Part shown: one piece after another, positions 2,002 to 57,948 of the stretch | How the letters are laid out: the number at the start of each line of letters is the position of its first letter | Numbering within the stretch: position 1 is the first letter of the stretch | Assembly: GCF_002563965.1 (NCBI RefSeq) | Contig: NZ_PDJF01000001.1 | Span: forward strand, 2,108,001 to 2,172,000 | Direction of reading: 5' to 3' | Source of the DNA: Corynebacterium renale | Lineage (GTDB): Bacteria; Actinomycetota; Actinomycetes; Mycobacteriales; Mycobacteriaceae | DNA length: 64,000 nt | Notes under the pieces: generated by a model | Seen by the model: the letters and a program-made list of their open reading frames with translations, nothing else | Database searches by the model: none | What the model was told of the DNA's origin: nothing | Translations under genes and position numbers: made by a program

Positions 2002-4802
<2,801 letters not shown>

Positions 4803-4872
4803 TTACGCCACATCATGCGTGGCCAGGCGGATGTTCGAATGAGTCTCTGCCCCATTTACTAGGGTGGTAGCC

Positions 4873-5544
4873 ATGTTGCCTTTCAACCCCAAGAAGATGT
4901 TGGCATTCGATCTTGAGACCACGTCAGCAAAACCCACCGAAGCGCGGATTGTTATCTCTGCGTTGGTACGGATCGACCCCGACGGTGCCCACCCCGAAGA
5001 ACTCCTTGCAGACCCCGGGGTAGAAATCCCCGAGGCCGCCCAGAAAGTTCACGGCATCTCTACCGAATACGCACGTGAACACGGCGCACCGCACGAGGAG
5101 GTCTTGGCACAGACCATCCAGACGCTCTACAAGGCGTGGGAAGAGGACTACGCGGTAGTCGCATACAATGCGAACTACGACCTCACCGTCCTGCATAGCC
5201 TGGACCCCACGTTTACTGTCAATGGTGCGGTTTTTGACCCATACGTCGTCGATAAAGTGCTTGACCGGTACCGGACGGGAAAGCGCACACTCACCGACGT
5301 CTGCGCGCACTACAACGTCCGCTTGGATAACGCCCACGAAGCCACCGCCGACGCACTTGCCGCCGCCCGCATCGCATGGATGCAGGCGCGCAAGTACCCA
5401 GACCTGCTTGAACAATCCGGCGAAGAGCTCATGGAGTTCCAAGCTGTGGGCTATTACGAAGTACAAGAAGACTTCAAGAAGTATCTGGAGTCCCGAGGCA
5501 AAGATGGATCGAACGTTTCGACCAGCTGGCCCATCCAGTCCTAA
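4873..5544 (+). CDS. DnaQ-like 3'-5' exonuclease
   Basis: A DEDDh-family exonuclease of 223 aa resembling the DNA polymerase III epsilon proofreading subunit. Exo I is FDLETT near residue 12, Exo II is AYNANYDLTVL near residue 100, and Exo III is NAHEATADALAA near residue 157, giving the DEDD metal ligands plus the histidine. It lacks the polymerase-binding tail and GIY-YIG domain seen in some relatives, so it is probably a free-standing exonuclease in repair or RNA turnover. The ATG at 4873 has an AGGGTGG ribosome site. A GTG three codons upstream is less likely. Confidence 0.85.
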   Translation: MLPFNPKKMLAFDLETTSAKPTEARIVISALVRIDPDGAHPEELLADPGVEIPEAAQKVHGISTEYAREHGAPHEEVLAQTIQTLYKAWEEDYAVVAYNANYDLTVLHSLDPTFTVNGAVFDPYVVDKVLDRYRTGKRTLTDVCAHYNVRLDNAHEATADALAAARIAWMQARKYPDLLEQSGEELMEFQAVGYYEVQEDFKKYLESRGKDGSNVSTSWPIQS

Positions 5545-5554
5545 CCCTTGAAAC

Positions 5555-5571
5555 ATACCCCCAGGGGGTAT
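5555..5571. promoter_or_regulatory. CsoR-type copper operator upstream of copZ
   Basis: A perfect 8-bp inverted repeat, ATACCCCC-A-GGGGGTAT, matches the known CsoR operator shape (TACCCC/GGGGTA arms). It overlaps a plausible -10 (TATGGT, 5571-5576) and sits 43 bp before the copZ start, so copper would relieve repression of copZ. No csoR gene is present in the window. Confidence 0.8.
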
Positions 5572-5613
5572 ATGGTGGTGGCGTAAAACAGCGCACACAG
5601 AAAGGCACACTCA

Positions 5614-5826
5614 ATGGTTACCCAAACGTATGATGTCACCGGCATGACCTGTGGCCACTGCGAGGCAGCAGTCCGTGAAGAAGTAGGCGATATCGCAGGC
5701 GTTACCGCCGTGACCGCTGACCACAACACCGGCAAGGTAGAAGTGACCGCCGAAGGCACCGTCGATGACGCAGCTGTGATCGACGCCATCAAGGAGGCCG
5801 GATACGAGGCCACCCCTTCCGCCTAA
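5614..5826 (+). CDS. copZ: Copper chaperone, heavy-metal-associated domain
   Basis: A single 70-aa HMA (ferredoxin-like beta-alpha-beta-beta-alpha-beta) domain with the metal-binding MTCGHC motif at residues 11-16. Such proteins carry Cu(I) in the cytoplasm to CopA-type ATPases or to CsoR. An AGAAAGG ribosome site precedes the ATG. The CsoR-type palindrome upstream indicates copper induction. No copper ATPase or csoR is adjacent. The next gene is an MFS exporter starting 27 nt downstream from what looks like its own promoter. The partner pump must be elsewhere. Confidence 0.92.
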   Translation: MVTQTYDVTGMTCGHCEAAVREEVGDIAGVTAVTADHNTGKVEVTAEGTVDDAAVIDAIKEAGYEATPSA

Positions 5827-42001: not shown

Positions 42002-42535
42002 ATGAACATCATTGAGGAGTCGTCGCACGGTGCGTCAGCGGCACCCAATGCCGTGGGCACGCCAAACGCGACGCAAGACGTTTTGCGGCATGTGAAGCCC
42101 GGCAAGACCCGAGCACCATTCCTGCGCTACATCCGTATCAACCTGCCGCGGCTGACTAAAGCCGTGCTCATCATGGTTATTGCCGTCATCGGCGCGACTG
42201 CCGCGGGTGTGGCGCTCAGCGACCACCTCCCCTTCCCCGGCGCTGACATCGCCCTGTGGATCGTTGTCGCATTCGCTGCTATTTACGTCCTGTTCGGACT
42301 GTTCACCACGCTGCGCATCTGGGACTACGGTTCGCTCGTCGGAGCCGCTGCACTCATCGTCTACATCGGTGGCCTGCTTGGCGACGCCCCATACGTGTGG
42401 AACGGCGCGTCTATCTATCTGGCCGCGACCTGGAACGTCATGGCTATCGCATCTCTGGCCTACTTCTTCCTGAACTGGGCCGTCAACTACGGCATGCTCG
42501 TCGCTTACCCCGACGATCAAGGCTTTACAGACTAG
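42002..42535 (+). CDS. Small membrane protein of the molybdo-cytochrome operon
   Basis: A 177-aa protein of no family I recognise. A polar N-terminus of about 55 residues is followed by four predicted transmembrane helices (about residues 57-77, 88-107, 113-132 and 142-165). There are no Cys pairs or heme-type His pairs within the helices, so it is more likely an assembly or structural subunit than a redox carrier. It is the first gene of the operon, starting at the ATG after the sequestered AGAAGGG site. The next gene begins 11 nt downstream. Confidence 0.8.
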   Translation: MNIIEESSHGASAAPNAVGTPNATQDVLRHVKPGKTRAPFLRYIRINLPRLTKAVLIMVIAVIGATAAGVALSDHLPFPGADIALWIVVAFAAIYVLFGLFTTLRIWDYGSLVGAAALIVYIGGLLGDAPYVWNGASIYLAATWNVMAIASLAYFFLNWAVNYGMLVAYPDDQGFTD

Positions 42536-42546
42536 GAGAACCACAC

Positions 42547-44049
42547 ATGGATATGGTTTATGATTTCCCCTGGTGGCTGCGTGTCGAGCACTTTGTCAAC
42601 ATCATCTTCATTACCTTCTTCATCCGAAGCGGTATTGAAATCCTTGGCACCTTCCCCCGCCTCCACCGCTCCGTCCACATGCCGGCAGGCAAACAGTGGG
42701 CCGAGTTCACCATCAAATCGAAGCCGAAGCACAAGTATTACTCTGTGGGCTCCGAGTATGAGGACTACTCCCCGATTGTCTCGCTGCCCGGCAAAGGCCT
42801 GCTTGGCATCGGACGCTACTGGCACTTCATGGCAGTCATCGGGTTTACCGTCTGCTTCATCATCTACTACGCACTCCTGATCTTCACCGGCCAGGGCATG
42901 CGCTACATTCCGCAGAGCTGGGACGTGTTCCCGCAAGCGGTCAATGACATGATCACGTACTTGGCATTCCAGACCCCGGAGGCGCTGCCAGGTATGCCGT
43001 TCAACGCTGTCCAGCAGCTTAGCTACGGCTTCATCATCCTGATCATGCCAGCGTTCATGATCTTCACCGGCTTCTTCCAGGCACCAGCAGTAAACCAACA
43101 CTGGCCGAAGATCACCCGCGCTCTTGGTGGCCGCCAGGTCATCCGTTCGCTGCACTTTTTCGGGCTGGTCATCTACATGGTGTTCATCGTCATTCACGTG
43201 GCGATGGTCATTGCCCACGGTTATGGACATGAAGTCTCCAAGATGGTCTTCGGCCACACGGAATCCCCCATTGCCGGCGGCATCATCTTCACCATCGGGC
43301 TGGCTTTCGTCGTCTGGCTGCACGTGATTGCAACGCGCACCTCTTTGGAGAAGCCACGCCTGATCGAGAAGCTGCACAACGTTGTAGTTCGCCCATTGAC
43401 GCGCCAGCTCATCAAACTGCCGTCTCGCGCAAACTCCGCATGGTCCAAGGACCGTGGCAAGGAGACCGAGCACTTCCGTGCCTCCGGTCACTCCCCAGAA
43501 ACCGATGAGTACGCAGCGATGGTCTCGCACAACTATGACGATGTCTACTACCTCGAAATCGGCGGTTTCGTAGAGAAGCCGATGCGCTTCTCCCTACCGG
43601 AGTTGCGTGAAATTGCCAAGGGCTACGAACAGACCACAATGCACAACTGCGTGCAAGGCTTCTCCTCCATCGGTACCTGGGGTGGCGTCCCCCTTCATGT
43701 CCTACTCGACATGGTTAAGCCACTACCTGGCTCATCCGACGTGGTCTTCAAGAGTTTCCAAATGATGGGCCGCGACGACCCCCTCTACCCGGAGGGCTGG
43801 TACTACGAGTCCGCGCCAATGTCCGAAGCGACGCAGCCCGAAACCCTGGTGGCCATCTCCCTCAACGGCGAGGACGTACCAGTGAAAAACGGTGCACCGC
43901 TGCGTATGCGCTTGGAGACCTCCACCGGTTTCCGTTCCATCAAATGGGTCGAGCGCATCGAGGTCGTCAACCGCTACGACATCATCGGCAAGGGCCGCGG
44001 TGGCTGGTTCGAAGACTTTGACAACTACGACCGTCTGCAAATGATCTAA
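42547..44049 (+). CDS. Membrane cytochrome b fused to a YedY/sulfite-oxidase-type molybdopterin domain
   Basis: A 500-aa fusion. Residues 1-265 form a cytochrome b561-like membrane domain with five predicted helices (about 13-33, 92-114, 157-178, 202-224 and 242-264). His15, His93, His203 and His217 are candidate b-heme ligands. Residues 325-480 form a molybdopterin oxidoreductase domain. The molybdenum-ligating cysteine is Cys368 in MHNCVQGFSSIGTWGGVPL, and LETSTGFRSIKWVERIEVV is typical of the fold. There is no Tat signal, and the positive charge after helices 1, 3 and 5 places the catalytic domain in the cytoplasm, unlike secreted MsrP. Substrate unknown. AGGAG site before the ATG. Confidence 0.9.
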   Translation: MDMVYDFPWWLRVEHFVNIIFITFFIRSGIEILGTFPRLHRSVHMPAGKQWAEFTIKSKPKHKYYSVGSEYEDYSPIVSLPGKGLLGIGRYWHFMAVIGFTVCFIIYYALLIFTGQGMRYIPQSWDVFPQAVNDMITYLAFQTPEALPGMPFNAVQQLSYGFIILIMPAFMIFTGFFQAPAVNQHWPKITRALGGRQVIRSLHFFGLVIYMVFIVIHVAMVIAHGYGHEVSKMVFGHTESPIAGGIIFTIGLAFVVWLHVIATRTSLEKPRLIEKLHNVVVRPLTRQLIKLPSRANSAWSKDRGKETEHFRASGHSPETDEYAAMVSHNYDDVYYLEIGGFVEKPMRFSLPELREIAKGYEQTTMHNCVQGFSSIGTWGGVPLHVLLDMVKPLPGSSDVVFKSFQMMGRDDPLYPEGWYYESAPMSEATQPETLVAISLNGEDVPVKNGAPLRMRLETSTGFRSIKWVERIEVVNRYDIIGKGRGGWFEDFDNYDRLQMI

Positions 44050-44059
44050 GGAGAAACTG

Positions 44060-44779
44060 ATGTATCCCCTCCACAAAGACATGACGCTCAACGAAGAGCA
44101 GCTGCAGATCGTCAGCGATTACGTCAAGGAAGTTGGCTTCTGCCTCCCGGGCACCGCTCCAGAGGACTTCCAGCCGCGCGCATTCGCCCGCTACCTGGGC
44201 TGGGAATTCATGAGTGAAGACCTCGAGGCCTACGGCGTGGGCCTGTACTGCACGAAGCCTGGCTTTGAAAAGTACTACACGTTCATCCGCATGAGCTATG
44301 GCCAACTCATGGGCGATCCCAACGCCCCACGACTGCCCGTAAACAATCCGGTGCTGGCCACCGACACGCTGCGCATGCACCGCTGGTGGTCACGCCGCGA
44401 GGGCCCAGCACGCAGTGGCGTAGACACCTACGACAAGGACGACGGTTCCGTCCCCGGCGTCGACCAGGACCTACGCGAACTCGGCGACATTCTGGGAGAC
44501 ATCCTGCACTTCGCGCAGCAAGGCAAGGGCCCAGATGACAAGGGCAAGTTCGACCTCGCCGTGGACTGGGGCACCCTTCTTGCCGGCCGCTACCCGCGCC
44601 TGCAGTACTTCCAGAACAAGGGAATGCTCACCCGCGAGCAAGAAGAAGCGCTCACCGATTTCGAAACGGTAGCCACGGACCTCCAGCCCACTCTCGAATA
44701 CCTGTCGCTCCCCACACTTGCGACGATCGCCCGCCCCGAGGCACGTACCCACGAGGCACACCACGATAAGACCACCTAA
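44060..44779 (+). CDS. Uncharacterised soluble protein of the molybdo-cytochrome operon
   Basis: A 239-aa protein with no transmembrane helix or signal peptide and no family that I recognise. It is acidic, rich in aromatic residues in its first half (FARYLGWEF, EKYYTFIRMSYG) and has two cysteines only (Cys28 and Cys64). The C-terminal tail is rich in His/Glu/Thr. An AAGGAG site lies 10 nt after the preceding stop, so synthesis should be coupled to the fusion enzyme. By position it could be a molybdenum-cofactor-inserting chaperone or a soluble electron-transfer or substrate subunit. This is inference. Confidence 0.75.
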   Translation: MYPLHKDMTLNEEQLQIVSDYVKEVGFCLPGTAPEDFQPRAFARYLGWEFMSEDLEAYGVGLYCTKPGFEKYYTFIRMSYGQLMGDPNAPRLPVNNPVLATDTLRMHRWWSRREGPARSGVDTYDKDDGSVPGVDQDLRELGDILGDILHFAQQGKGPDDKGKFDLAVDWGTLLAGRYPRLQYFQNKGMLTREQEEALTDFETVATDLQPTLEYLSLPTLATIARPEARTHEAHHDKTT

Positions 44780-44835: not shown

Positions 44836-45180
44836 ATGAACCCACACGTTGTGCTCTTGGCCCAAGAAGCCGAAGAAGCAGTAGAAACGCTTCCCTTCCA
44901 GACCGAGATTTCCCTGGCAGCGTCCGTTGTACTTCTCCTCGCCTTTGCCCTGCTCAACCTGGGCAAACTCACCCCGGAGCACTACACCTACCAGTGGGCA
45001 AACGCTATCGGCGCCGCATTCTTGACGTACACCTGCATCAAACCGTTCAACGTTGGCGTCTTCATTACCGAAGCGCTCTGGACCTTGATCGGCCTGTACG
45101 GCGTGTACAAGATCTACCGCACCCGCAAGAAGCGCCAGGCCCAAGGCCTCGACCCTATGCCACAAGCCCCGAACGCGTAA
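44836..45180 (+). CDS. CBU_0592-like three-helix membrane protein (copy 1)
   Basis: A 114-aa membrane protein with three predicted helices (about residues 26-46, 54-73 and 78-97), resembling the CBU_0592-like family of small membrane proteins of unknown function. It has a basic cytoplasmic tail (TRKKRQAQG). Over 44 aligned residues it shares 30 with the next protein, including the core IKPFN and FITEA, so the two arose by duplication. It has an AAAGGA site and is the fourth gene of the operon. Confidence 0.75.
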   Translation: MNPHVVLLAQEAEEAVETLPFQTEISLAASVVLLLAFALLNLGKLTPEHYTYQWANAIGAAFLTYTCIKPFNVGVFITEALWTLIGLYGVYKIYRTRKKRQAQGLDPMPQAPNA

Positions 45181-48337: not shown

Positions 48338-48360
48338 TTCAACCTATGATGGGAGCTCGT

Positions 48361-49389
48361 ATGACTTCGCACAACCTCTTGGAAGATTCTTTCGGGCGCG
48401 TCGCCCGCGACCTGCGCGTGTCGCTGACTGACCGCTGCAATCTGCGCTGCACATACTGCATGCCCGCAGAGGGCTTAGAGTGGATTCCCACTCCCCTGAC
48501 GCTGACCGACGATGAAACGATTCGCCTCATCCGCATCGCGGTCGAACAGCTTGGCATCCGCCAGGTGCGCTTCACCGGTGGCGAGCCTCTGTTGCGCAAG
48601 TCCTTAGAGAAAATTGTCGCCGCCACCAAGCAGATGACTACCGACGAAGGCATCGCCCCGCATACTGCAATAACCACCAATGCGTTAGGTTTGCAACGGC
48701 GTGCAGCCAAACTCAAGGAAGCCGGACTTGACCGCGTCAACATTTCCTTGGATACGCTTGACCCCGCGCATTACGCTTTGTTAACGCGTCGCGACCGCCA
48801 CGCCGACGTCCTTAAAGGGATTGACGCTGCACTCAAAGCAGGGCTGAATCCGGTAAAGATCAATTCGGTCGTCATGCCCGGCATCAACGACAATGACATC
48901 GTCGAGTTAGCGCATTTCGCGCTCACCCGGGGCCTCGAGCTGCGGTTCATCGAACAGATGCCTCTCGGGCCACCGTCGGAATGGGACCGAAAGCTCATGA
49001 TCAGCGCCGAAGACATTTTGGACGAACTGCGCACTCGCTTTGACCTCACACCAGCAGCAGAGCCACGCGGTTCTGCGCCTGCCGCTGTGTGGGACGCCGT
49101 CGACCTCCACGACAGTGCTATCTCTGGCCGCATCGGCGTGATTGCTTCAGTAAGCCATCCTTTCTGCGGAGATTGCGACCGCACTCGCCTCACGACGGAC
49201 GGAGCCATCCGCAATTGCCTGTTCACCCGTGAAGAAACCTCCCTGCGGGACATCATGCGCGACGGTGCAACCGACGAGGAGCTAGGCAACCTGTGGCGCG
49301 CTAACACTATGGCAAAGAAGCCTGGCCACGGCATCGATAACCCAAGCTTTGTGCAGCCGTCTCGCCCGATGTCTGCCATCGGTGGCTAG
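48361..49389 (+). CDS. moaA: GTP 3',8-cyclase MoaA
   Basis: Radical-SAM enzyme (342 aa) that starts molybdopterin synthesis from GTP. The N-terminal cluster site is CNLRCTYC and the C-terminal second [4Fe-4S] site comprises the cysteines in FCGDCDRTR and the later NCLF. The C-terminal double glycine tail (SAIGG) required for activity is present. ATG 48361 has a GGGAG site. Two earlier in-frame ATGs (48346, 48349) are less well placed. First gene of the plus-strand moaA-moeA-moaC group. Confidence 0.96.
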   Translation: MTSHNLLEDSFGRVARDLRVSLTDRCNLRCTYCMPAEGLEWIPTPLTLTDDETIRLIRIAVEQLGIRQVRFTGGEPLLRKSLEKIVAATKQMTTDEGIAPHTAITTNALGLQRRAAKLKEAGLDRVNISLDTLDPAHYALLTRRDRHADVLKGIDAALKAGLNPVKINSVVMPGINDNDIVELAHFALTRGLELRFIEQMPLGPPSEWDRKLMISAEDILDELRTRFDLTPAAEPRGSAPAAVWDAVDLHDSAISGRIGVIASVSHPFCGDCDRTRLTTDGAIRNCLFTREETSLRDIMRDGATDEELGNLWRANTMAKKPGHGIDNPSFVQPSRPMSAIGG

Positions 49390-49407
49390 GGTTTAGACTG
49401 ATTCACT

Positions 49408-50691
49408 GTGAAACACGGGTTTAATTCATCAATTCCTGCGCAGACACCACCGCAAACTATTGAAGAGCACCTTCGTCAGGTGCTCGATTACGTTTCTCCG
49501 CTGCCGCCCGTCCGTCTCCCCATTGGAGACGTGCAGACCAGCGCAATGCGCCGACTCGCAGACGACGTGATGACCAAAATCCCTGTTCCCGCCTTCACTA
49601 ATTCGGCAGTGGACGGGTTCTTAGTACACGACGAAGATCTCCACGGCCCAGGCCCGTGGACCCTGCCCGTAGTAGGCGATATTCCTGCAGGTAGCGAACC
49701 ACGTTCCGTCCCCAAAGGCGCGGCCGTCCGTGTGATGACAGGAGCGCCAGTCGGAGAACACGTCGAAGGTCTCCGCGCGGTCCCCGTGGAAAATACGGAT
49801 TCTCCGGTATTCCCGTCGGCGCACGCGGTACCAAAGACGGTAACTATCACTTCCTTTACCCCAGATCGGCGCCACCTTCGCGCGCGTGGCGAGCACCTGG
49901 CTGAAGGAAGCGTCGCTTTGCGTGCCGGTACCCCCATCGATTCCGCAGCGATTGCCACAATGTTGTCGGTCGGTGCACCCGTTTTTTCGGTCTACCCGCT
50001 GCCGCGGGTCGTGGTCGTCACTACTGGCGACGAACTCACCCGCGATGCCACCAGAGCGTGGACGATCCCCAATTCGAATGGGCCGATGGTGATTCGCATG
50101 TTGCACGACCTCGGGGTCAAGGACGTTAGCCACAGGCACTTAAGCGACGCAGTGGATGCGTTTACCGGGGAGATGGACCAACTTGCCAGCACCGTCGACC
50201 TCATCGTGACTATGGGCGGCATTTCCGCAGGAGCCTACGACGTCGTCCGTATGGCGGGTACCCGCCGCGGTACCGTCGAATTCGGGCCAGTTGCGATGAG
50301 CCCGGGCAAGCCGCAAGGCGTGGGCCATTGGCGCGGCACCCCGATGATTTGTCTGCCTGGCAATCCGGTGGCCTCGTGGGTATCGGTTCCGCTCTTCGTA
50401 GCTCCCGCGATTCGCCGGATGGCAGGAGGGCCCTCACCAACGTCCTACGTAGAGGTTCCCCATCTGCGGATGCCAGCGTCGGAACCTTTGCTGGCGCAGA
50501 CCGGGAAAACTCAGGTCGTGCCAGTGCGCATTGATTGGACAACGGGAACGGTGTCCGCCGCGAAGATTCGCCGCTCCCACATGATTGGTTCTGCGGTCGG
50601 CTGTGACGGGCTAGCGATCATCCGCCCCGCCGAAGAGCTCACTGACGACGACAACCTGGTATTCGTTTTACCTGTCTTCCCCGTGCTTTAG
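49408..50691 (+). CDS. moeA: Molybdopterin molybdotransferase MoeA, copy 1
   Basis: Inserts molybdate into adenylylated molybdopterin. The 427-aa protein shows the MoeA N-terminal SAVDGFLV, the molybdopterin-binding core TTGDEL...IPNSNGPM, the TMGGISAGAYD motif and LPGNPVASWV. It starts at GTG 49408. TAGACT ends 8 nt upstream, so it may have its own leaderless promoter as well as moaA read-through. A second, divergent MoeA is encoded at 53279-54544. Confidence 0.93.
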   Translation: MKHGFNSSIPAQTPPQTIEEHLRQVLDYVSPLPPVRLPIGDVQTSAMRRLADDVMTKIPVPAFTNSAVDGFLVHDEDLHGPGPWTLPVVGDIPAGSEPRSVPKGAAVRVMTGAPVGEHVEGLRAVPVENTDSPVFPSAHAVPKTVTITSFTPDRRHLRARGEHLAEGSVALRAGTPIDSAAIATMLSVGAPVFSVYPLPRVVVVTTGDELTRDATRAWTIPNSNGPMVIRMLHDLGVKDVSHRHLSDAVDAFTGEMDQLASTVDLIVTMGGISAGAYDVVRMAGTRRGTVEFGPVAMSPGKPQGVGHWRGTPMICLPGNPVASWVSVPLFVAPAIRRMAGGPSPTSYVEVPHLRMPASEPLLAQTGKTQVVPVRIDWTTGTVSAAKIRRSHMIGSAVGCDGLAIIRPAEELTDDDNLVFVLPVFPVL

Positions 50692-50724
50692 CACTATTTT
50701 TCTGCCGCTTTGATTGGAGAATTC

Positions 50725-51201
50725 ATGGAATTTACACACCTTAATGCCGCCGGTGACGCCTACATGGTTGATGTCACCGCAAAGACACCAACGGTGCGCG
50801 AGGCAACAGCTATCGGAGAGGTCGCCTGCTCACCCGAAGTCATGCAGGCACTTCGCGACGGCACCGTCCCTAAAGGCGATGTCCTCGCAGTAGCCCGCGT
50901 CGCCGGCATTGCAGCTGCAAAGAAGGTTCCCGAACTTCTCCCCCTGGCCCACACCATCGGAGTGCATGGTTGTGCGGTGGACCTAGAGCTTCACGACGAC
51001 CACGTGGCAATCTCGGCAACCGTGCGCACTGCAGAACGCACCGGTGTGGAAATGGAAGCGCTGACGAGCGTTTCCGTTGCTGCCCTGGCAATTATCGACA
51101 TGGTCAAAGGCGTTGACCGCTCCGCATACATACGCCGGTGCGGAATCGTCGCAAAGTCGGGTGGCCGCTCCGGCGACTGGTCTCGCGAGTTACCGCGCTA
51201 A
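50725..51201 (+). CDS. moaC: Cyclic pyranopterin monophosphate synthase MoaC
   Basis: Second step of cofactor synthesis, forming cyclic pyranopterin monophosphate after MoaA. The 158-aa protein carries MVDVTAKTPTVREA, the active-site KKVPELLPLAHTI and the TGVEMEALTSVSVAAL helix with the MVKGVDR catalytic lysine/Asp region. ATG 50725 has a GGAGA site. It ends 21 nt before the convergent moeB gene. Confidence 0.96.
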   Translation: MEFTHLNAAGDAYMVDVTAKTPTVREATAIGEVACSPEVMQALRDGTVPKGDVLAVARVAGIAAAKKVPELLPLAHTIGVHGCAVDLELHDDHVAISATVRTAERTGVEMEALTSVSVAALAIIDMVKGVDRSAYIRRCGIVAKSGGRSGDWSRELPR

Positions 51202-51222
51202 CAGCCCGGCGCGACTGCTTCC

Positions 51223-52269
51223 CTAGTGCTGGGAGATCCAGCGCTGGTATCCCCCACGGTAGGATTTCATTCCGCGAAGTCCCTGCTGCTCCCATATATC
51301 CATGGCGGCTAGAGAGCGAACCCCGCCGGCGCAATACACCACCACGGGTTGATCGTCGGGGAGCTCTGGGATTGCTCCGCGCTGCACCGCGGAAAGCGGG
51401 AAGTTGAGGGCGCCGGGTATGGCCCCTGTGGCGAATTCGAAGGGCTCGCGGACGTCGATAAGCACAGCACCTTCAGGGATAGTATCCACTTCGCGCAGGC
51501 TCGCCGGATCCATCACTGGCCCATGCTCGCGGATGTGCTCAGCGACTGCTGGCTCAGCCGACAGTGGGATGTATTCCCAGCTACCAGTCATGGCGTCAAA
51601 ATATCCAAGCTTTCCCACCAGTGGCGTGCCCACTCCAGAGAGCAGCTTCAGCGCTTCGAGCGCCATCGCGGAGCCGGTAATACCCACAAGCGGACCTAAT
51701 ACGCCAGCCTGCGCGCACGAAGGAACGGAACCCGGTGCCGGCGGGTTGGGGAAAATATCCTCGTAAACTGGTCCATGGCCTGCCCAGAACACAGACAGTT
51801 GTGATTCAAACCCTAAAATCGAGGCCCACACATGCGGGATTCCAAGCCGCGTGCATGCCCACGACGCGATATGCCGGGTAGCAAAGTTATCCGCGCCATC
51901 GAGAACAACATCGGCGTCTTCAAGAACGTGTAGTGCGTTGGCCTCCGTCAGGCGGCCCGCATAAGTACGCACGTGAATGGTCGGGTTTAAAGCGAGCATC
52001 TGCTCGCGTGCGGAATCTACTTTGAGCGTTCCCACCGCGGCATCGGTGTGGATTACTTGGCGGTGCAGGTTGGTCACGTCCACGGTGTCGTCGTCGATGA
52101 CCGTAATCGTCCCGACGCCTGCTCCCGCTAGGTATAGCAGCGCGGGTGAGCCTAAGCCGCCGGCGCCGATGACGGCCACGTGGGCGTCGAGAAGCTTCTC
52201 TTGGGCCTGTGTGCCGAAGCCGGCGAGTGTGGTTTGGCGGAGGTAACGGTGTGCTTGTTCGTTGTTCAC
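51223..52269 (-). CDS. moeB: MoeB/ThiF-type adenylyltransferase fused to rhodanese
   Basis: Activates the C-terminal Gly-Gly of MoaD (and possibly other sulfur-carrier proteins) by adenylation. A C-terminal rhodanese domain could then deliver sulfur. Of 348 aa, residues 1-235 are the E1-like part (VIGAGGLGSPALLYLAGAGVG, then DVTNLHRQVI and VLDGADNFATR). Residues 255-348 are the rhodanese part, with active-site loop YCAGGVRS (Cys in VVVYCAGG). The usual zinc CxxC pairs are absent. GTG 52269 overlaps the moaE stop by 4 nt (GTGA), so it is coupled to moaE. Confidence 0.92.
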   Translation of the reverse strand: MNNEQAHRYLRQTTLAGFGTQAQEKLLDAHVAVIGAGGLGSPALLYLAGAGVGTITVIDDDTVDVTNLHRQVIHTDAAVGTLKVDSAREQMLALNPTIHVRTYAGRLTEANALHVLEDADVVLDGADNFATRHIASWACTRLGIPHVWASILGFESQLSVFWAGHGPVYEDIFPNPPAPGSVPSCAQAGVLGPLVGITGSAMALEALKLLSGVGTPLVGKLGYFDAMTGSWEYIPLSAEPAVAEHIREHGPVMDPASLREVDTIPEGAVLIDVREPFEFATGAIPGALNFPLSAVQRGAIPELPDDQPVVVYCAGGVRSLAAMDIWEQQGLRGMKSYRGGYQRWISQH

Positions 52270-52733
52270 TCCAGGCCCACCCACTGCGCGGAGCCGTCGA
52301 GGAGTTCCTGTTCTTTCCAGATTGGGACCTCTGCTTTAACTGCGTCGGCGACCGCGGAGCACGCTGCAAACGCGTCACCGCGATGGGCACTTGCTACGAG
52401 CACCAGAAACGCGATCTCTCCGATGGTGAGCGGACCGGTGCGATGTGCCACCCACATGCGGGTATTCGGATGCTCCGCAGAAATCCGGGCCACCACGGCC
52501 TCAATCTCTTGTTGGGCACTCGGATGGGCTGTGTACGTCAGATTTTTCACACGCTGACCGCCATCATGGTCGCGCACAATCCCCTCGAACGTCACCAAAG
52601 CGCCCATGGCTTCTGTGACCGTAGCGGAACGAGCCTCTCCCTGGAGCTCCTCCAGCGGCTGCGTGGTCATCCGGGCAGAAATGACCTTGCCCGTCTGTTC
52701 CGCTACATAAGCGGGATCATTATTAATGCTCAT
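52266..52733 (-). CDS. moaE: Molybdopterin synthase catalytic subunit MoaE
   Basis: Large subunit of molybdopterin synthase (155 aa), which transfers sulfur from MoaD thiocarboxylate to precursor Z. Family landmarks are GALVTFEGIVRDHDGGQRVKNLTY, HRTGPLTIGEIAFLVLVASAHRG and the catalytic VKAEVPIWKEQ. ATG 52733 lies inside the moaB end (11-bp overlap), and the stop overlaps the moeB start, so moeA2-moaB-moaE-moeB form one tightly coupled unit. moaD lies on the opposite strand. Confidence 0.95.
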   Translation of the reverse strand: MSINNDPAYVAEQTGKVISARMTTQPLEELQGEARSATVTEAMGALVTFEGIVRDHDGGQRVKNLTYTAHPSAQQEIEAVVARISAEHPNTRMWVAHRTGPLTIGEIAFLVLVASAHRGDAFAACSAVADAVKAEVPIWKEQELLDGSAQWVGLE

Positions 52734-53277
52734 GCGATCCTTCCAACATGTCGCATAGGTGTCCAATAATCGGTTCCAAAATAGCGCACCCATCTTTTAC
52801 AGCTCCTTTGGAGCCAGGGAGCGCCATAACAAATGAGTTGCCCACTGTACCTGCCACGGCGCGCGAAACAACTGCCATCGGGGTCGATTCCACACCCTTA
52901 GCAAAGAAAGCGTGTGCGATCCCGGGCAGTTCGCGATCAAGGTGTGGAGTGATGGCCTCTACGGAACGGTCGTCGGGGGTCACACCAGTGCCGCCGGTCG
53001 TGATAATCACGCGGGGCAAGTCCTTACGTGTAGGGCTTGCCAGTAGGTCTTCCATGTAGGTTTCCATGTCCGCATCGGCCACCAGGGTGGCATCGGGACA
53101 CTCGAAGCCTAGCCTGCGGAAGAACTCCACGAGCACCGGGCCGGTCTGGTCCTGGTATTCACCTGCTGCCGCTCGCGTAGAGGCAACGATGACCAGGGCG
53201 CGACGCTGCGGCCGCGTGTCATGGGAATGTATGTGTTCGCGGTGGTGACTATGGGTGTGTTCAGACATAGTGCCCAT
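52723..53277 (-). CDS. moaB: Molybdopterin adenylyltransferase (MoaB/Mog family) with His-rich N-terminus
   Basis: Adenylylates molybdopterin before molybdate insertion by MoeA. The 184-aa protein has the family core TTGGTGVTPDDRSVEAI and VMALPGSKGAVKDG. Unusually, it begins with a histidine-rich tail (seven His between residues 7 and 19, HTHSHHREHIHSHD) that is not part of the fold and may bind a metal. An alternative ATG at 53268 keeps this tail. The start lies 1 nt after the moeA2 stop. Confidence 0.92.
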   Translation of the reverse strand: MGTMSEHTHSHHREHIHSHDTRPQRRALVIVASTRAAAGEYQDQTGPVLVEFFRRLGFECPDATLVADADMETYMEDLLASPTRKDLPRVIITTGGTGVTPDDRSVEAITPHLDRELPGIAHAFFAKGVESTPMAVVSRAVAGTVGNSFVMALPGSKGAVKDGCAILEPIIGHLCDMLEGSHEH

Positions 53278-53278
53278 G

Positions 53279-54544
53279 CTAGCGCGGAAGTTTCAGCACC
53301 TTCACGGTCTCGCCGGCAGCGAGATCAGCGTGCGACGGAACAACAAGCAGGCACGTGGCTTCGATAGCCTGCAGCAGTAAGTGGGAACCTGGGCCACCGA
53401 GCGGGCGGACCATGACATGCCCGTGGTCATCAACCCAGTGCACGCCTCTGCGGAGCTGCTCGCGATGATCGCTCAAACCGGTGACGGGCTCCGCCAAAAT
53501 AGCAGTCTGCTCCTCGACGTCCACGGCTGCCGTTTCCTCGGCCGCACCGACGGAAACCCGGATGTACTGCTGCACACTTGGACCAACGAAACGCCGGAAA
53601 CTGACCAGCGTGGATATAGGATTTCCGGGCAAGCATATGACCGGGACACCGCTGTAGGTCCCCAGCCCCTGTGGCCCACCTGGCTGCTGGGTAACGTGCC
53701 CAAACCAGCCACCTGCAGGTTCCAGCAACTGCCGGATGACTTCAAAACGGCCGTGGCTAATTCCACCCGAGGTGACGATGAAATCCGGGCGATGTTCGGC
53801 GATGGCAGCGTCGACATCACGTCGTAGCTCCTCGAGGTCGTCGTTCGTGCGCAGGCGTCGCACGGTCTCTATACCCCAGGCGCGTGCCAGGGCTTGGAGC
53901 ATCGGGCCGTTAGAATCCGGGATGGATGCGGGGCCAGGGGCATCGGTGATTTCTTTACCACCAGTGGTGAGCAGAACCCGCGGGGTAGACGCCACGGAGA
54001 CAGTGCGCACACTTTGTCCGAGCAAGGCTGCCAGCAGCACAGGGCCAACAACGGTCCCAGCCGCCGCAATCACGGAACCAGCCGCCACATCTGAACCTTG
54101 TGCACGCACGAACTGCCCTGTAGGGGTCTGCGGAACGTGTACCCGTGCTGGCTCCAAAGCCTCTGCCTCATCAAAAGAAGGCGGTGTGCATTGTTCCACC
54201 GGTACGATAGCCACAATCTCTTCTGGGACACGCGCACCTGTCATGATCGGCAGGACAGCGTGCGGGTCGGCGTCCGTAATCACTTCGCTGGGATCGACAC
54301 CAGCGGCGATCGTGGCACCTACGGGGAACTCGCCACCACCAAGGTGCTCCTCGCGGAGCCCGTAACCATCCATCTGTGAATTTGGAAAAGGTGGCGAATC
54401 GACATTCGCGACGACGTCGTGAGCCAAAATTCTGCCCACAGAATCAAGGACTGCAACGTCTTCTGTGCGTACTGTCATCGCGTCCTGTAAGACGGCCGCG
54501 ATTTCTGCAAGATGCTCCTGGGCACGTCGCGCGCTCTCTGCCAT
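53279..54544 (-). CDS. moeA: Molybdopterin molybdotransferase MoeA, copy 2
   Basis: A second MoeA (421 aa). Visible motifs are FPNSQMDGYGL, LLTTGGKEI...IPDSNGPM, VTSGGISHGRFEV and LPGNPISTLVSF. It is clearly diverged from copy 1, for example TSGGISHG instead of TMGGISAG. The two may have different roles or partners, as with gephyrin-like paralogues. ATG 54544 has a GGAAGG site; the frame is open to 54817 but the extension is not conserved. First gene of the minus-strand moeA2-moaB-moaE-moeB unit, divergent from moaD. Confidence 0.93.
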   Translation of the reverse strand: MAESARRAQEHLAEIAAVLQDAMTVRTEDVAVLDSVGRILAHDVVANVDSPPFPNSQMDGYGLREEHLGGGEFPVGATIAAGVDPSEVITDADPHAVLPIMTGARVPEEIVAIVPVEQCTPPSFDEAEALEPARVHVPQTPTGQFVRAQGSDVAAGSVIAAAGTVVGPVLLAALLGQSVRTVSVASTPRVLLTTGGKEITDAPGPASIPDSNGPMLQALARAWGIETVRRLRTNDDLEELRRDVDAAIAEHRPDFIVTSGGISHGRFEVIRQLLEPAGGWFGHVTQQPGGPQGLGTYSGVPVICLPGNPISTLVSFRRFVGPSVQQYIRVSVGAAEETAAVDVEEQTAILAEPVTGLSDHREQLRRGVHWVDDHGHVMVRPLGGPGSHLLLQAIEATCLLVVPSHADLAAGETVKVLKLPR

Positions 54545-54592
54545 TACTGCCTTCCTTTCATAACACCTATATATCAGGGTACCGTGGGGCCC

Positions 54593-54853
54593 ATGATTGA
54601 CGTGCATTATTTCGCAGCAGCTCGCGCGGCTCGGGGCGTAGCTCACGAGTCCGTGGACGGCACTTTTTCTACCCTTCACGACTTGCTCGAGCACCTCGCT
54701 GCCCACAACGACGGCACCACCGACGCTGGGATGAACCTCAAGGACATCTTTGCGCGCTGCAGCTTTCTTATCGACGGCACACGTCAACCCCCAGAAGCCT
54801 CCCTTGATGAAGCTCACCGCGTAGATATCTTGCCACCGTTCGCTGGAGGATAA
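54593..54853 (+). CDS. moaD: Molybdopterin synthase sulfur carrier subunit MoaD
   Basis: Ubiquitin-like sulfur carrier of 86 aa ending in FAGG. The C-terminal glycine is adenylated by MoeB and thiocarboxylated for MoaE. The beta-grasp pattern (VHYFAAARAARG, then HDLLEHL and RVDILPPFAGG) is clear. A TACCGT hexamer (54580-54585) ends 7 nt before ATG 54593, suggesting a leaderless transcript in the 48-bp gap to the divergent moeA copy 2. A GTG at 54584 is an alternative. Confidence 0.92.
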   Translation: MIDVHYFAAARAARGVAHESVDGTFSTLHDLLEHLAAHNDGTTDAGMNLKDIFARCSFLIDGTRQPPEASLDEAHRVDILPPFAGG

Positions 54854-54915
54854 ATTTTCTACGGTAATTCACACGCAATTATGTGACTTTGCCAATGGGC
54901 ACATGCAATCCCACA

Positions 54916-54929
54916 TGTACCCGAGTACA
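54916..54929. promoter_or_regulatory. TGTAC-N4-GTACA palindrome at the modA promoter
   Basis: TGTAC-CCGA-GTACA, a perfect 5+5 inverted repeat, overlaps a probable modA -10 (TACACT, 54926-54931). It is the same palindrome as at 41809-41822. Overlap with the -10 suggests repression. Confidence 0.6.
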
Positions 54930-54968
54930 CTTGTGAGATATCAGTGATCCAACTTTGAAAGGTTACGT

Positions 54969-55832
54969 ATGTCTCTGAAGCGCGTACTCACCGCTACCGT
55001 TGCTGCTTCCGCAGCGTTCGCACTTGCAGCATGCTCCCCTTCTAATGAGAAGGACTCCACCGCATCGTCTACTGCAACTACCTCCGCAGCAGACAGCACC
55101 GCGGCTGAGCAGGCTACCGAAGCAGTGGACCTGAACGTCCTGGCCGCCTCATCCACGCGTGTCCTAGAAGACGACTTCACCGAGGACGCACTCACTCTCG
55201 AACTACCTGCAAACTTGACCTTCGACTTCGATGGTTCTTCCGGCCTGGTTTCCAAGATGGAAGAGGGCGCTCCAGCTGACTTGTTCATCTCCGCTGACAA
55301 GCGCAACATGGACAAGGCAGTAGAAAAGGGCCTAGTTCTGGACCCCGTAAACGTTGCAACTAACTCCATGGTCATGGTCGTGCCAAAGGGCAACCCGGCC
55401 GGCATCACCGGTGTAGATGAGTCCCTGAACGGCGCAAAGCTCGTTCTGTGCGCACCACAGGTCCCCTGCGGTGGCGTATCCCAGAAAATCCAGGAAGATC
55501 TGGGCGTTTCCCTGCAGCCCGTTTCTGAAGAGCAGAAAGTCGGCGACGTTCTGACCAAGGTTGTCTCCGGCGAAGCTGACGCAGGATGGGTCTACCGCAC
55601 CGACGCAGCAGCTGCTGGCGATGATGTCGAAATCATCGAAATCCCTAACGCTGACCAGCACCCGAACGAGCTGTGGGCAGCAGTTGCCGCTAACTCCGAG
55701 AACAAGGAAGCCGCAGACGGCGTTCTGCGCCTGATTGCTTCCAACGCTTTCAGCCCAGTGTGGGAGAAGTACGGCTTCTCGGCTGTCTCCACCAACGAAG
55801 TTGCTCCCACCACGACGGCCGCTAAGAACTAA
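54969..55832 (+). CDS. modA: Molybdate-binding lipoprotein ModA
   Basis: Extracytoplasmic solute-binding component of a molybdate ABC importer. The 287-aa precursor has a lipoprotein signal with lipobox LAAC (acylated Cys21), a Ser/Thr/Ala-rich linker (to about residue 52) and a ModA domain: NVLAASSTRVLEDDF, GSSGLVSKMEEGAPADLFISADKRNM, VPCGGVSQK and GEADAGWVYRTDA. GAAAGG site before the ATG. Predicted regulation through the palindrome overlapping the -10. Confidence 0.95.
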   Translation: MSLKRVLTATVAASAAFALAACSPSNEKDSTASSTATTSAADSTAAEQATEAVDLNVLAASSTRVLEDDFTEDALTLELPANLTFDFDGSSGLVSKMEEGAPADLFISADKRNMDKAVEKGLVLDPVNVATNSMVMVVPKGNPAGITGVDESLNGAKLVLCAPQVPCGGVSQKIQEDLGVSLQPVSEEQKVGDVLTKVVSGEADAGWVYRTDAAAAGDDVEIIEIPNADQHPNELWAAVAANSENKEAADGVLRLIASNAFSPVWEKYGFSAVSTNEVAPTTTAAKN

Positions 55833-55866
55833 GTAGCGCCCCCAGATCTAACTTCACGTAACGCGT

Positions 55867-55900
55867 GTGGCTGTAGCTCCCTCCCAGGGGCTGCAGCCAC
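55867..55900 (+). other. Hairpin between modA and modBC
   Basis: A 14-bp stem with two wobble pairs (55867-55880 with 55887-55900) has no U tract after it. It may protect the modA mRNA 3' end or attenuate transcription into modBC. Such hairpins often set a higher level of the binding protein than of the permease. Confidence 0.55.
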
Positions 55901-55974
55901 AGTTGTGTGTACACCTCACCTCCACCCACTTTTTCGTGTACTTCCTTCAATCCACTACGACGAATCGTGCGCGC

Positions 55975-57948
55975 ATGAAAACTGAAGAAAACACTGCAGA
56001 AATAAAAGCCATTCCGCCCCGCCCGGCGCCATCCCGCATCCCGTCAGCGTGTGTGGTTCTCGGCATTATTGGCGTCATCATCATCGTGGGCCCACTCATT
56101 GCGCTTGGCTTCCGCGTACCGTGGGATCGCCTCGGAGAGATTCTCACCGAGGAAGACACCATCACCATGCTCAAGGTCACCTTGTATGCGGCCTTCCAGT
56201 CAACAGTGATCACCACGCTCATTGGCGTGCCGCTTGCGGTGTGGACAAACCACACGCGACGCGGCGGTCGTGTCATCCGCCTCCTTGTCATGCTTCCGCT
56301 CGCCATGCCCCCGGTCGTCGGTGGTCTAGCACTGACGGCTGCGGTAGGACGCCGTGGTTATACCGCTCCCATCTTGGATGCCTTGGGCATCGAGTTCGCA
56401 TTCGCATTTCCGGGTGTGGTCTTGGCGCACATCTTCGTCTCATTACCTTTCGTCGTGGTTTCGGTAGACTCCGCGCTGCGCCAGATTGACCGTGAGATTC
56501 TTGCGTCCGCGGCGAGCGTGGGGATGAAGCCCGCCGCAATCTTGTTCAAAATCACGCTGCCAGCGATTGCCCCTGCGATCGCTACCGGCGCCGGCCTTGC
56601 ATTTGCTCGCTCTCTGGGCGAGTTCGGCACGACCATCACCTTCGCGGGTTCCATGCCGGGAATCACGCGCACCATGCCGCTGGGCATCTACCTAGAGCGC
56701 GAGATCGATTACGACCGTTCGTATGTGCTTGCCGCCATCCTGATCGCCCTGGCAGTGACCATCATTGCACTGTCTATGCTGCCGGCCGCATTAAAGAAAA
56801 AGCACACGCCACGTCCAGCAGTGATTGGTGAGTTAGACACCCAGCGCATGCGCGACCTGACCCGACCTGAAACTGGCGGGAAGGAAGTATCCATCACCAC
56901 GTTGGGCGCAACGACCGTGTTCCCCGCGAATCATGTCACAGCTGTTGTGGGCCCGAATGGGTCAGGCAAAACCACCATGAGCGGTCTGATTGCTGGGCGC
57001 CTCCGAGGAGCCGAAGTCCGCGTTGGCGATACACCTGTCGACGGACCATCTGTGCCCTACGTCTCCGCACACGACCGTGGCATCGTCTTGCTTACCCAAC
57101 GTCCCGGCCTGCCGCACACCGCAACTGTTTCAGAAGCCGTGACCATGGCTTCTGGTTCACAGGAACTGACTGCGGAGCTTCTCGACGCCTCCGGCCTGAA
57201 TGCCCTAGCAAACACACCTGTGCCCGCTCTTTCCGGCGGCCAGGCTGCGCAGGTCGCACTGGTACGAGCTCTTGCCGCACGGCCGTCGGTTCTCATTTTG
57301 GATGAGCCCCTGGCTGCCGTCGACGTGGCTTCGACCGCACGCTGGCGTCGCGTTTTACGCGCTACGAGCGCGGACCGCACCACCATTGTGGTCACCCACG
57401 ACTCTGTGGATATTGCCGGCTTGGCCGATTCTGTCGTAGTCCTCGAAGAAGGTCGCAGCGTGGCACACGTGGGTACGCAAGAATTCTTCGTGCTGCCTCC
57501 GACGACCTTCGCATCCAGGCTGGCCGGCATTAACCGGCTGTGGGGTTACGTTTCGGAGGTCTCCGGTGACGGTGCAGTGACCGTCGTGAGTGAACATTCC
57601 TTGACCGCAGTGGGCTTTGCTGAAGAACCACTTACTGCGGGTGCCGAGGCCGTGGTCACCTGCCCCCCTTCCGACATCACGCTTCGCCTACCGGTCGCCG
57701 ACTCGCCTGTGGAATCCGCGCGCAACGTGTGGACCGGCACGGTGCTTTCTGTAGACACGATGCCTGCCGAATTTGGCGCTGGCGCGCACGCGGTCGTGAC
57801 GGTGGATGTCGGAATGACGTCTATTACTGTTCCGGTGACCTCGCAAGCTTTGGTTGATCTGGACCTGGAACCAGGCGATAACGTCGAATGCCTGGTCAAA
57901 GCCATGAATGTGAAAATTCATCCACGAACCATCACCGCGAATACCTAA
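55975..57948 (+). CDS. modBC: Molybdate ABC transporter, fused permease and ATPase (ModB-ModC)
   Basis: A 657-aa single-chain importer subunit. The N-terminal part (about residues 20-270) is a ModB permease with six predicted helices and the EAA loop (ASAASVGMKPAAILFKITLP). A linker of about 30 residues leads to a ModC ATPase with Walker A GPNGSGKTT, signature LSGGQ, Walker B LILDEP and the switch His in VVTHDS. The C-terminal 140 residues look like a TOBE-type molybdate-binding domain. ATG 55975 is chosen. The frame is open to 55867 but crosses the hairpin. Confidence 0.92.
   Translation: MKTEENTAEIKAIPPRPAPSRIPSACVVLGIIGVIIIVGPLIALGFRVPWDRLGEILTEEDTITMLKVTLYAAFQSTVITTLIGVPLAVWTNHTRRGGRVIRLLVMLPLAMPPVVGGLALTAAVGRRGYTAPILDALGIEFAFAFPGVVLAHIFVSLPFVVVSVDSALRQIDREILASAASVGMKPAAILFKITLPAIAPAIATGAGLAFARSLGEFGTTITFAGSMPGITRTMPLGIYLEREIDYDRSYVLAAILIALAVTIIALSMLPAALKKKHTPRPAVIGELDTQRMRDLTRPETGGKEVSITTLGATTVFPANHVTAVVGPNGSGKTTMSGLIAGRLRGAEVRVGDTPVDGPSVPYVSAHDRGIVLLTQRPGLPHTATVSEAVTMASGSQELTAELLDASGLNALANTPVPALSGGQAAQVALVRALAARPSVLILDEPLAAVDVASTARWRRVLRATSADRTTIVVTHDSVDIAGLADSVVVLEEGRSVAHVGTQEFFVLPPTTFASRLAGINRLWGYVSEVSGDGAVTVVSEHSLTAVGFAEEPLTAGAEAVVTCPPSDITLRLPVADSPVESARNVWTGTVLSVDTMPAEFGAGAHAVVTVDVGMTSITVPVTSQALVDLDLEPGDNVECLVKAMNVKIHPRTITANT

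Follow-up and report, generated by a model that had tools for sequence, protein, structure and literature searches.

The 64,000-nucleotide stretch of Corynebacterium renale analysed here (contig NZ_PDJF01000001.1; hereafter the window) encodes at 42547-44049 (+) a chain of 500 amino acids (aa), gene B, in which a di-heme cytochrome b is fused to a molybdenum (Mo)-pterin oxidoreductase. This fusion raises the question of which side of the membrane the Mo site faces, and in which direction the electrons run. An original prediction had described five hydrophobic helices with four histidines, joined to a YedY/sulfite-oxidase-type domain carrying Cys368, with no twin-arginine translocation (Tat) signal and with the Mo domain placed in the cytoplasm by the positive-inside rule. 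The sequence features were confirmed, and the cytoplasmic placement is well supported by sequence. On balance, gene B appears to encode a quinone-linked molybdoenzyme in a single chain, which belongs to the YedY-like branch of the sulfite-oxidase fold and is built on an inverted FdnI-type cytochrome, and the charge pattern of its loops makes it very probable that the Mo site lies on the cytoplasmic side. Gene B does not stand alone and is one of three conserved operon products. Its features are as follows.

42547..44049, + strand: gene B, fused di-heme cytochrome b / Mo-pterin oxidoreductase, 500 aa (open frame, Pfam and AlphaFold2)
42571..42651, + strand: helix 1, residues 9-35, N-terminus predicted outside, heme ligand His15
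42802..42888, + strand: helix 2, residues 86-114, heme ligand His93
43006..43077, + strand: helix 3, residues 154-177, quinone-site residues Asn153 and Gln156 at its start
43132..43215, + strand: helix 4, residues 196-223, heme ligands His203 and His217
43267..43350, + strand: helix 5, residues 241-268, without a preceding twin-arginine
43354..43410, + strand: Lys/Arg-rich helix 270-288 directly after helix 5, taken as a cytoplasmic mark
43540..43974, + strand: Mo-pterin domain (sulfite-oxidase fold), residues 332-476
43648..43650, + strand: codon of Cys368, the Mo ligand
43654..43656, + strand: codon of Gln370, which is Gln in the fused proteins checked and Glu in the exported YedY-like ones checked

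Both halves of gene B matched Pfam families above the cut-off, PF01292 at residues 7-236 and PF00174 at residues 332-476, and the PF00174 score of 93.4 bits against a cut-off of 24 places the Mo domain in the sulfite-oxidase fold. The AlphaFold2 model (predicted local distance difference test, pLDDT, 88.5; predicted template modelling score, pTM, 0.85) showed the five long helices listed above and a distinct alpha/beta domain starting at about residue 320. Cys368 is the aligned counterpart of the Mo-ligand Cys in E. coli YedY, which is the top PDB match of gene B by sequence, and it was invariant in 87/87 alignment rows and in 108/108 loci with an alignable position. Gene B did not reach the cut-off of the curated MsrP model NF003767 (73.1 bits, cut-off 207) or those of SorA and SorT (48.4 of 600 and 20.5 of 570 bits, respectively).

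The cytochrome part is homologous to FdnI of formate dehydrogenase. His15, His93, His203 and His217 of gene B align with His18, His57, His155 and His169 of FdnI, the quinone-site Gln also aligns, and the spacing of 14 residues between His203 and His217 is the same in FdnI. A fifth histidine, His259 in helix 5, is common but not universal (97/118 fused rows). Asn/Asp153 and Gln156 are conserved quinone-site residues, from which the quinone linkage of gene B is predicted. While the fold and the four heme ligands are alike, FdnI differs in having four helices, an N-terminus inside, its catalytic side outside and separate FdnGH subunits; its Mo side is outside and its quinone site inside. The original prediction had chosen MsrP-MsrQ (YedY-YedZ) of E. 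coli for comparison, which shares with gene B the Mo domain fold, the type of Cys motif and electrons from the quinone pool. However, MsrP is exported by Tat and its partner cytochrome is of the MsrQ type, whereas gene B has a PF01292/FdnI-like cytochrome and no Tat signal, so the proper comparison is with the pair of an FdnI-type cytochrome and an exported YedY-like lipoprotein. MsrQ/YedZ is described as a cytochrome b with six putative helices in the relevant passage of PMC4228395.

The topology was examined by a charge test, in which the loops were taken from one joint alignment and Lys and Arg were counted up to 15 residues from each helix. The fused set (n=116) consisted of 115 proteins of at least 480 residues among 120 listed of 201 homologues, together with the Paraburkholderia caledonica protein, and the unfused cytochrome control (n=123) was drawn from the best 120 of 8000 scored matches. 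Five of the 120 listed homologues (<480 aa) and one of the 120 unfused cytochromes (<255 aa) were left out, as were loci L071, L081 and L087 (3/80 loci, no full cytochrome in one frame) and L135 (1/22 extra loci). The side formed by loops 1 and 3 and the C-tail was the more basic one in 116/116 fused proteins (mean 11.3 vs 4.0), and when the C-tail was ignored, the side of loops 1 and 3 was still more basic in 115 and equal in one. By contrast, the side of loops 1 and 3 was more basic in 0/123 unfused cytochromes (mean 4.1 vs 12.2), the side of the N-terminus, loop 2 and loop 4 carrying 4.0 basic residues in the fused set and 12.2 in the unfused one. The fused-type sign was also found in 77/77 cytochrome parts from 80 named loci, in 21/21 further proteins, and in the fused proteins of Natrinema and Curtobacterium, which were scored apart. 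The N-in orientation expected of PF01292 (FdnI/HyaC) cytochromes is thus not the one predicted here, the charge pattern being reversed in 116/116 fused proteins. Homologues with an extra N-terminal helix (n=10, six fused and four cytochrome-only) agree more weakly, with more basic residues before the extra helix than after it in nine and a tie in one.

Insertion of the Mo cofactor (Moco) takes place in the cytoplasm, and Mo domains that are exported cross the membrane folded, through Tat. Neither RR/KR/RK directly before helix 5 nor RR before helix 1 was present in any of the fused proteins (0/116 for each). With no Tat motif, a strongly basic segment after helix 5 and cytoplasmic insertion of Moco, the Mo domain should stay inside.

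A second mark separates the fused proteins from exported ones. Gln stands two residues after the Mo Cys in 115/115 fused proteins (from 120 listed of 201 homologues), and alignment without a residue requirement gave Gln at this position in 79/79 named loci reaching it (L080 ends before) and in 29/29 other loci (L003-L010, L112-L114 and L124-L141, where a single gene is split between L135 and L140). Of two peptide patterns used to find the 80 loci, one contains this Gln, so that these loci are partly selected, while the 115 proteins are not. The corresponding residue is Glu in 124/124 exported YedY-like proteins, in E. coli YedY and in the Sco3746-like locus L028, and Thr in L025 and L026, which are single-anchor relatives with RR. 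Among the proteins checked, Gln is tied without exception to the fused, non-Tat form.

A five-helix Mo fusion has already been published, and Sco3746 is the nearest such architecture found in print. As described in PMC5449189 (eLife 2017), Sco3746 is a dual general secretion (Sec)-Tat polytopic protein with five helices and a C-terminal Mo-cofactor domain; heme histidines are reported in helices 2-4, each homologue carries a twin-arginine directly before helix 5, reporter export is Tat-dependent, and cysteine labelling shows the N-terminus inside. Sco3746, compared here by this description, resembles gene B in uniting five helices and a C-terminal Mo-cofactor domain in one chain and in having heme-ligand histidines in its helices, but the heme histidines of gene B are in helices 1, 2 and 4, and the N-in orientation, exported Mo side and twin-arginine before helix 5 contrast with a family in which 0/116 proteins carry that motif. 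L028 fits the description of Sco3746, with Glu after the Mo Cys, an SRRSF sequence preceding its last helix and four helices above the hydropathy threshold, and its alignment with the gene B protein was significant in the Mo domain only (best cytochrome-part match E 0.16). By its described histidines, Sco3746 uses another cytochrome, and its Mo domain is on the opposite side. No published account of the inverted fused family was recognised in the literature searched. A passage of PMC7759655 refers to an uncharacterised group of cytoplasmic enzymes with the sulfite-oxidase fold and a single subunit.

Unfused relatives were found in four plasmid loci (L115-L118), where downstream of a PF01292 cytochrome gene lies a Mo gene whose product begins with a twin-arginine signal and a lipobox-like Cys; over wider sets, 124/124 unfused Mo proteins had RR in residues 1-30 and a motif resembling a lipobox. 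These adjacent genes encode a homologous cytochrome, with the four heme His and the quinone Gln, and a homologous Mo domain. They differ from gene B in being two proteins, with a four-helix cytochrome, an RR plus lipobox-like export signal, the opposite charge bias, and Glu at the position of Gln370. These pairs are presumably group 1B of PMC7759655. In an unrooted tree of 53 rows, 49 fused proteins were split from four unfused ones with support of 100/100, although long branches were flagged, and since the tree separates fused from unfused, one inversion is enough. The whole redox complex may have been turned over in the membrane: the same di-heme cytochrome would dock the same Mo domain at an unchanged face, which is outside in the exported-lipoprotein clade (Glu) and inside in the fused clade (Gln). 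The fused form would amount to a minimal NarGHI counterpart for a cytoplasmic oxide, made of one chain and conserving energy. We regard the arguments for and against this complete picture as evenly balanced. If true, one electron-transfer machine is run in both membrane orientations, and the two forms would be nature's own test of how bioenergetic direction depends on orientation. Whether a membrane redox enzyme conserves or wastes energy is decided by the side on which each half-reaction takes place. With homologous complexes in opposite orientation, with and without a Tat signal, the effect of orientation could be studied on parts that are otherwise alike, and the YedY-like enzymes, of which the characterised one, MsrP, is periplasmic, would gain a cytoplasm-facing quinone-linked member.

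In the mechanism we propose, the chain would have its N-terminus outside, five helices, and the Mo domain in the cytoplasm. Menaquinol would be oxidised at a site beside the heme of His15/His217, placed on the outer side through the inversion, and the heme of His93/His203 would carry electrons across to the inner-side Mo-pterin, where a cytoplasmic oxidised substrate would be reduced, S- or N-oxides as in YedY/MsrP being the probable candidates. The direction from quinol to substrate is rather likely, and an oxide as substrate has about an even chance of being right. A cytoplasmic oxide reductase is proposed because quinol oxidation outside and reduction inside would be electrogenic, as in NarGHI, where quinol is oxidised near the outer side and the Mo site is in the cytoplasm. 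The likeness to NarGHI is one of working layout, since NarGHI has an unrelated Mo fold, an iron-sulfur chain and three subunits. In the exported relatives, the quinone site would be inside and the Mo site outside, like FdnGHI.

Several points weigh against the reading of gene B as an inverted, YedY-like enzyme with an inward-facing Mo site. The evidence on topology is drawn from sequence throughout. Loop 1 is a weak carrier of the positive-inside rule because it is long (~58 residues), and part of its charge may serve the Mo domain as a docking surface. Coming from the top 120 of 8000 matches, whose names are mostly those of Rhizobiaceae (28 rows at 80% identity), the unfused control effectively represents a single clade, and related sequences are not independent, so that the fused set amounts to about five clades vs one unfused clade. 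Charge margins are slim in several extra-helix homologues (e.g. 4 vs 3, one tie, sometimes one residue), and the haloarchaeal member has a small excess of 8 vs 3. In structure, the Mo domain comes closest to a sulfite dehydrogenase and not to YedY, and no recurring substrate gene or common enzyme was found among the operon neighbours. By parsimony, helix 5 could be an addition that left the Mo domain outside, where it is in Sco3746. In that case the protein would be N-in, helix 5 would span outward, and Tat would export the folded domain with the help of a partner protein or by way of an unusual signal. The orientation of FdnI and the unfused pairs would then be retained without any inversion, as one extra helix keeps the Mo domain on its side, and Sco3746 and its relatives are reported to do so with positive charges after helix 5 as well (PMC5449189, in the same description). 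Yet the twin-arginine of each Sco3746 homologue has no equivalent before helix 5 in the fused set, the charge is reversed on both faces, including the loss of basic residues on the side of the N-terminus, loop 2 and loop 4, and the extra-helix clade points the opposite way, which makes an exported Mo domain very improbable.

With the Mo domain of gene B kept in the cytoplasm, the enzyme could still work as a dehydrogenase, oxidising a cytoplasmic donor (e.g. sulfite) and passing electrons outward to menaquinone. This is unlikely, although it deserves some weight: the residues after the Mo Cys are V-Q-G, near the V-E-A of YedY and not the A-G-N-R-R of plant sulfite oxidase 1ogp, the SorA and SorT cut-offs were unreached while YedY was the best PDB match by sequence, and with the quinone site on the outer side, this direction would spend membrane potential. 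A non-catalytic Mo domain, acting as a pterin-binding or regulatory module like the PruR proteins of the same fold, is hardly credible in view of the invariance of Cys368 and of the Moco genes ~4 kb from gene B; MoaC, Mob_synth_C and SBP_bac_11 also each matched 3/135 flanking proteins scanned (of 147 selected).

The two other products of the operon are encoded next to gene B.

42002..42535, + strand: gene A, 177-aa membrane protein with about four helices and a basic N-terminal region (hydropathy; A profile)
44060..44779, + strand: gene C, 239-aa soluble protein with no signal peptide by eye (C profile)

Gene A ends 11 bases before gene B, and gene C starts 10 bases after it; the hydropathy segments of gene A are residues 54-72, 83-101, 109-127 and 138-156. 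Gene A had no Pfam or NCBIfam match above the cut-off, and gene C had no Pfam match above the cut-off and no confident fold match in the fold comparison. Profiles of both were searched against the frames of the 80 named loci, the A profile including four distant members and the C profile being built from the close clade only. The A profile matched upstream of B and on its strand in 77/80 loci, with an A-B gap of >1 kb in three (L072, L073 and L075); the loci without a match were L071 and L078, with almost no DNA upstream of B, and L095, where DNA is present. The C profile matched in 79/80 loci (weakest E 1.3e-6; 50 on the strand of B and 29 opposite), the exception being L080, which ends inside B. 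Because the C profile came from the close clade only, it is an independent result that it also matched in mycobacteria, Streptomyces and Rubrobacter-like genomes. The A-B-C linkage was seen across Actinobacteria and Gammaproteobacteria, and A and C are constant partners of B, predicted to lie in the membrane and to be soluble in the cytoplasm, respectively. Either could be a subunit, a stabiliser or a cofactor-insertion helper, and the proposed role of gene B, if right, would point to a function for these two families travelling with it.

Protein C appears split in the mycobacterial loci L083 (6481-6804 +) and L086 (6777-7058 -), its N-terminal piece adjoining B and its C-terminal piece on the other strand. 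A lipoprotein-like gene of the distant clade occurs near A-B-C in 19/80 loci (L072, where it sits between A and B, L073, L075 and 16 others); three members scanned had no Pfam match, and the product could be an outside partner. In the window, C is followed by a 114-aa CBU_0592-family membrane protein (44836-45180), a homologue of which is near the operon in 23/109 loci compared. In Vreelandella jeotgali (L055:2956-4356), a flavin monooxygenase-like frame, which by eye we take to resemble trimethylamine monooxygenase, directly precedes A-B-C and is a possible hint at N- or S-oxides.

The cofactor cluster that had been placed beside gene B was confirmed.

48346..57948, strand not assigned: Mo-cofactor / molybdate genes

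It includes moaA, moeA, moaC, a ThiF/rhodanese gene (moeB-like), moaE, a MoCF gene (mog/moaB-like), a second moeA, a ThiS-family moaD-like gene (54602-54850), a modA-like solute-binding protein and a fused permease-ATPase. These genes need not serve gene B alone because the 2.35 Mb genome, a single contig, has other Mo-enzyme matches. Gene B had been taken as the sole molybdoenzyme of the window, and it is the sole PF00174 match in the whole genome. It is not the only likely molybdoenzyme of the genome, as PF00384 has two matches outside the window, one in an intact frame of 824 aa and the other in a frame interrupted by two stops. The latter (L120, G000:C1:2236555-2237889) contains one TGA and one TAG and is possibly a decayed gene. 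PF02738 had no match in the genome.

The search of 5.8 billion proteins gave the 201 homologues, of which, among 120 listed, 115 had at least 480 residues and 118 both domains. In the genus sample, 30/201 genomes matched at E <= 1e-40 (17 matches with at least 57% identity and 14 at 30-34%), and in the phylum sample 13/396 genomes matched at E <= 1e-20. An uncommon enzyme had been expected; fused forms are patchy, but not rare in nature. The close form is also found in Gammaproteobacteria (Halomonas, Marinomonas and Oceanimonas) at 59-61% identity, which suggests horizontal transfer, and remoter fused forms occur in Natrinema, Curtobacterium and Paraburkholderia caledonica. An extra-helix-clade homologue (L135/L140, G118) is broken by a frame change between the cytochrome and the Mo domain, either an assembly error or decay. 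Finally, the genome of gene B also encodes a 366-aa paralogue (G000:C1:961196-961675; L121, minus-strand frame 4619-5719), which has a proline/alanine-rich N-terminus, an extra N-terminal helix and a di-heme cytochrome of the gene B type with no Mo domain, and matches to the cytochrome part only were found in 15/36 other genomes of the same genus, three of which were read.
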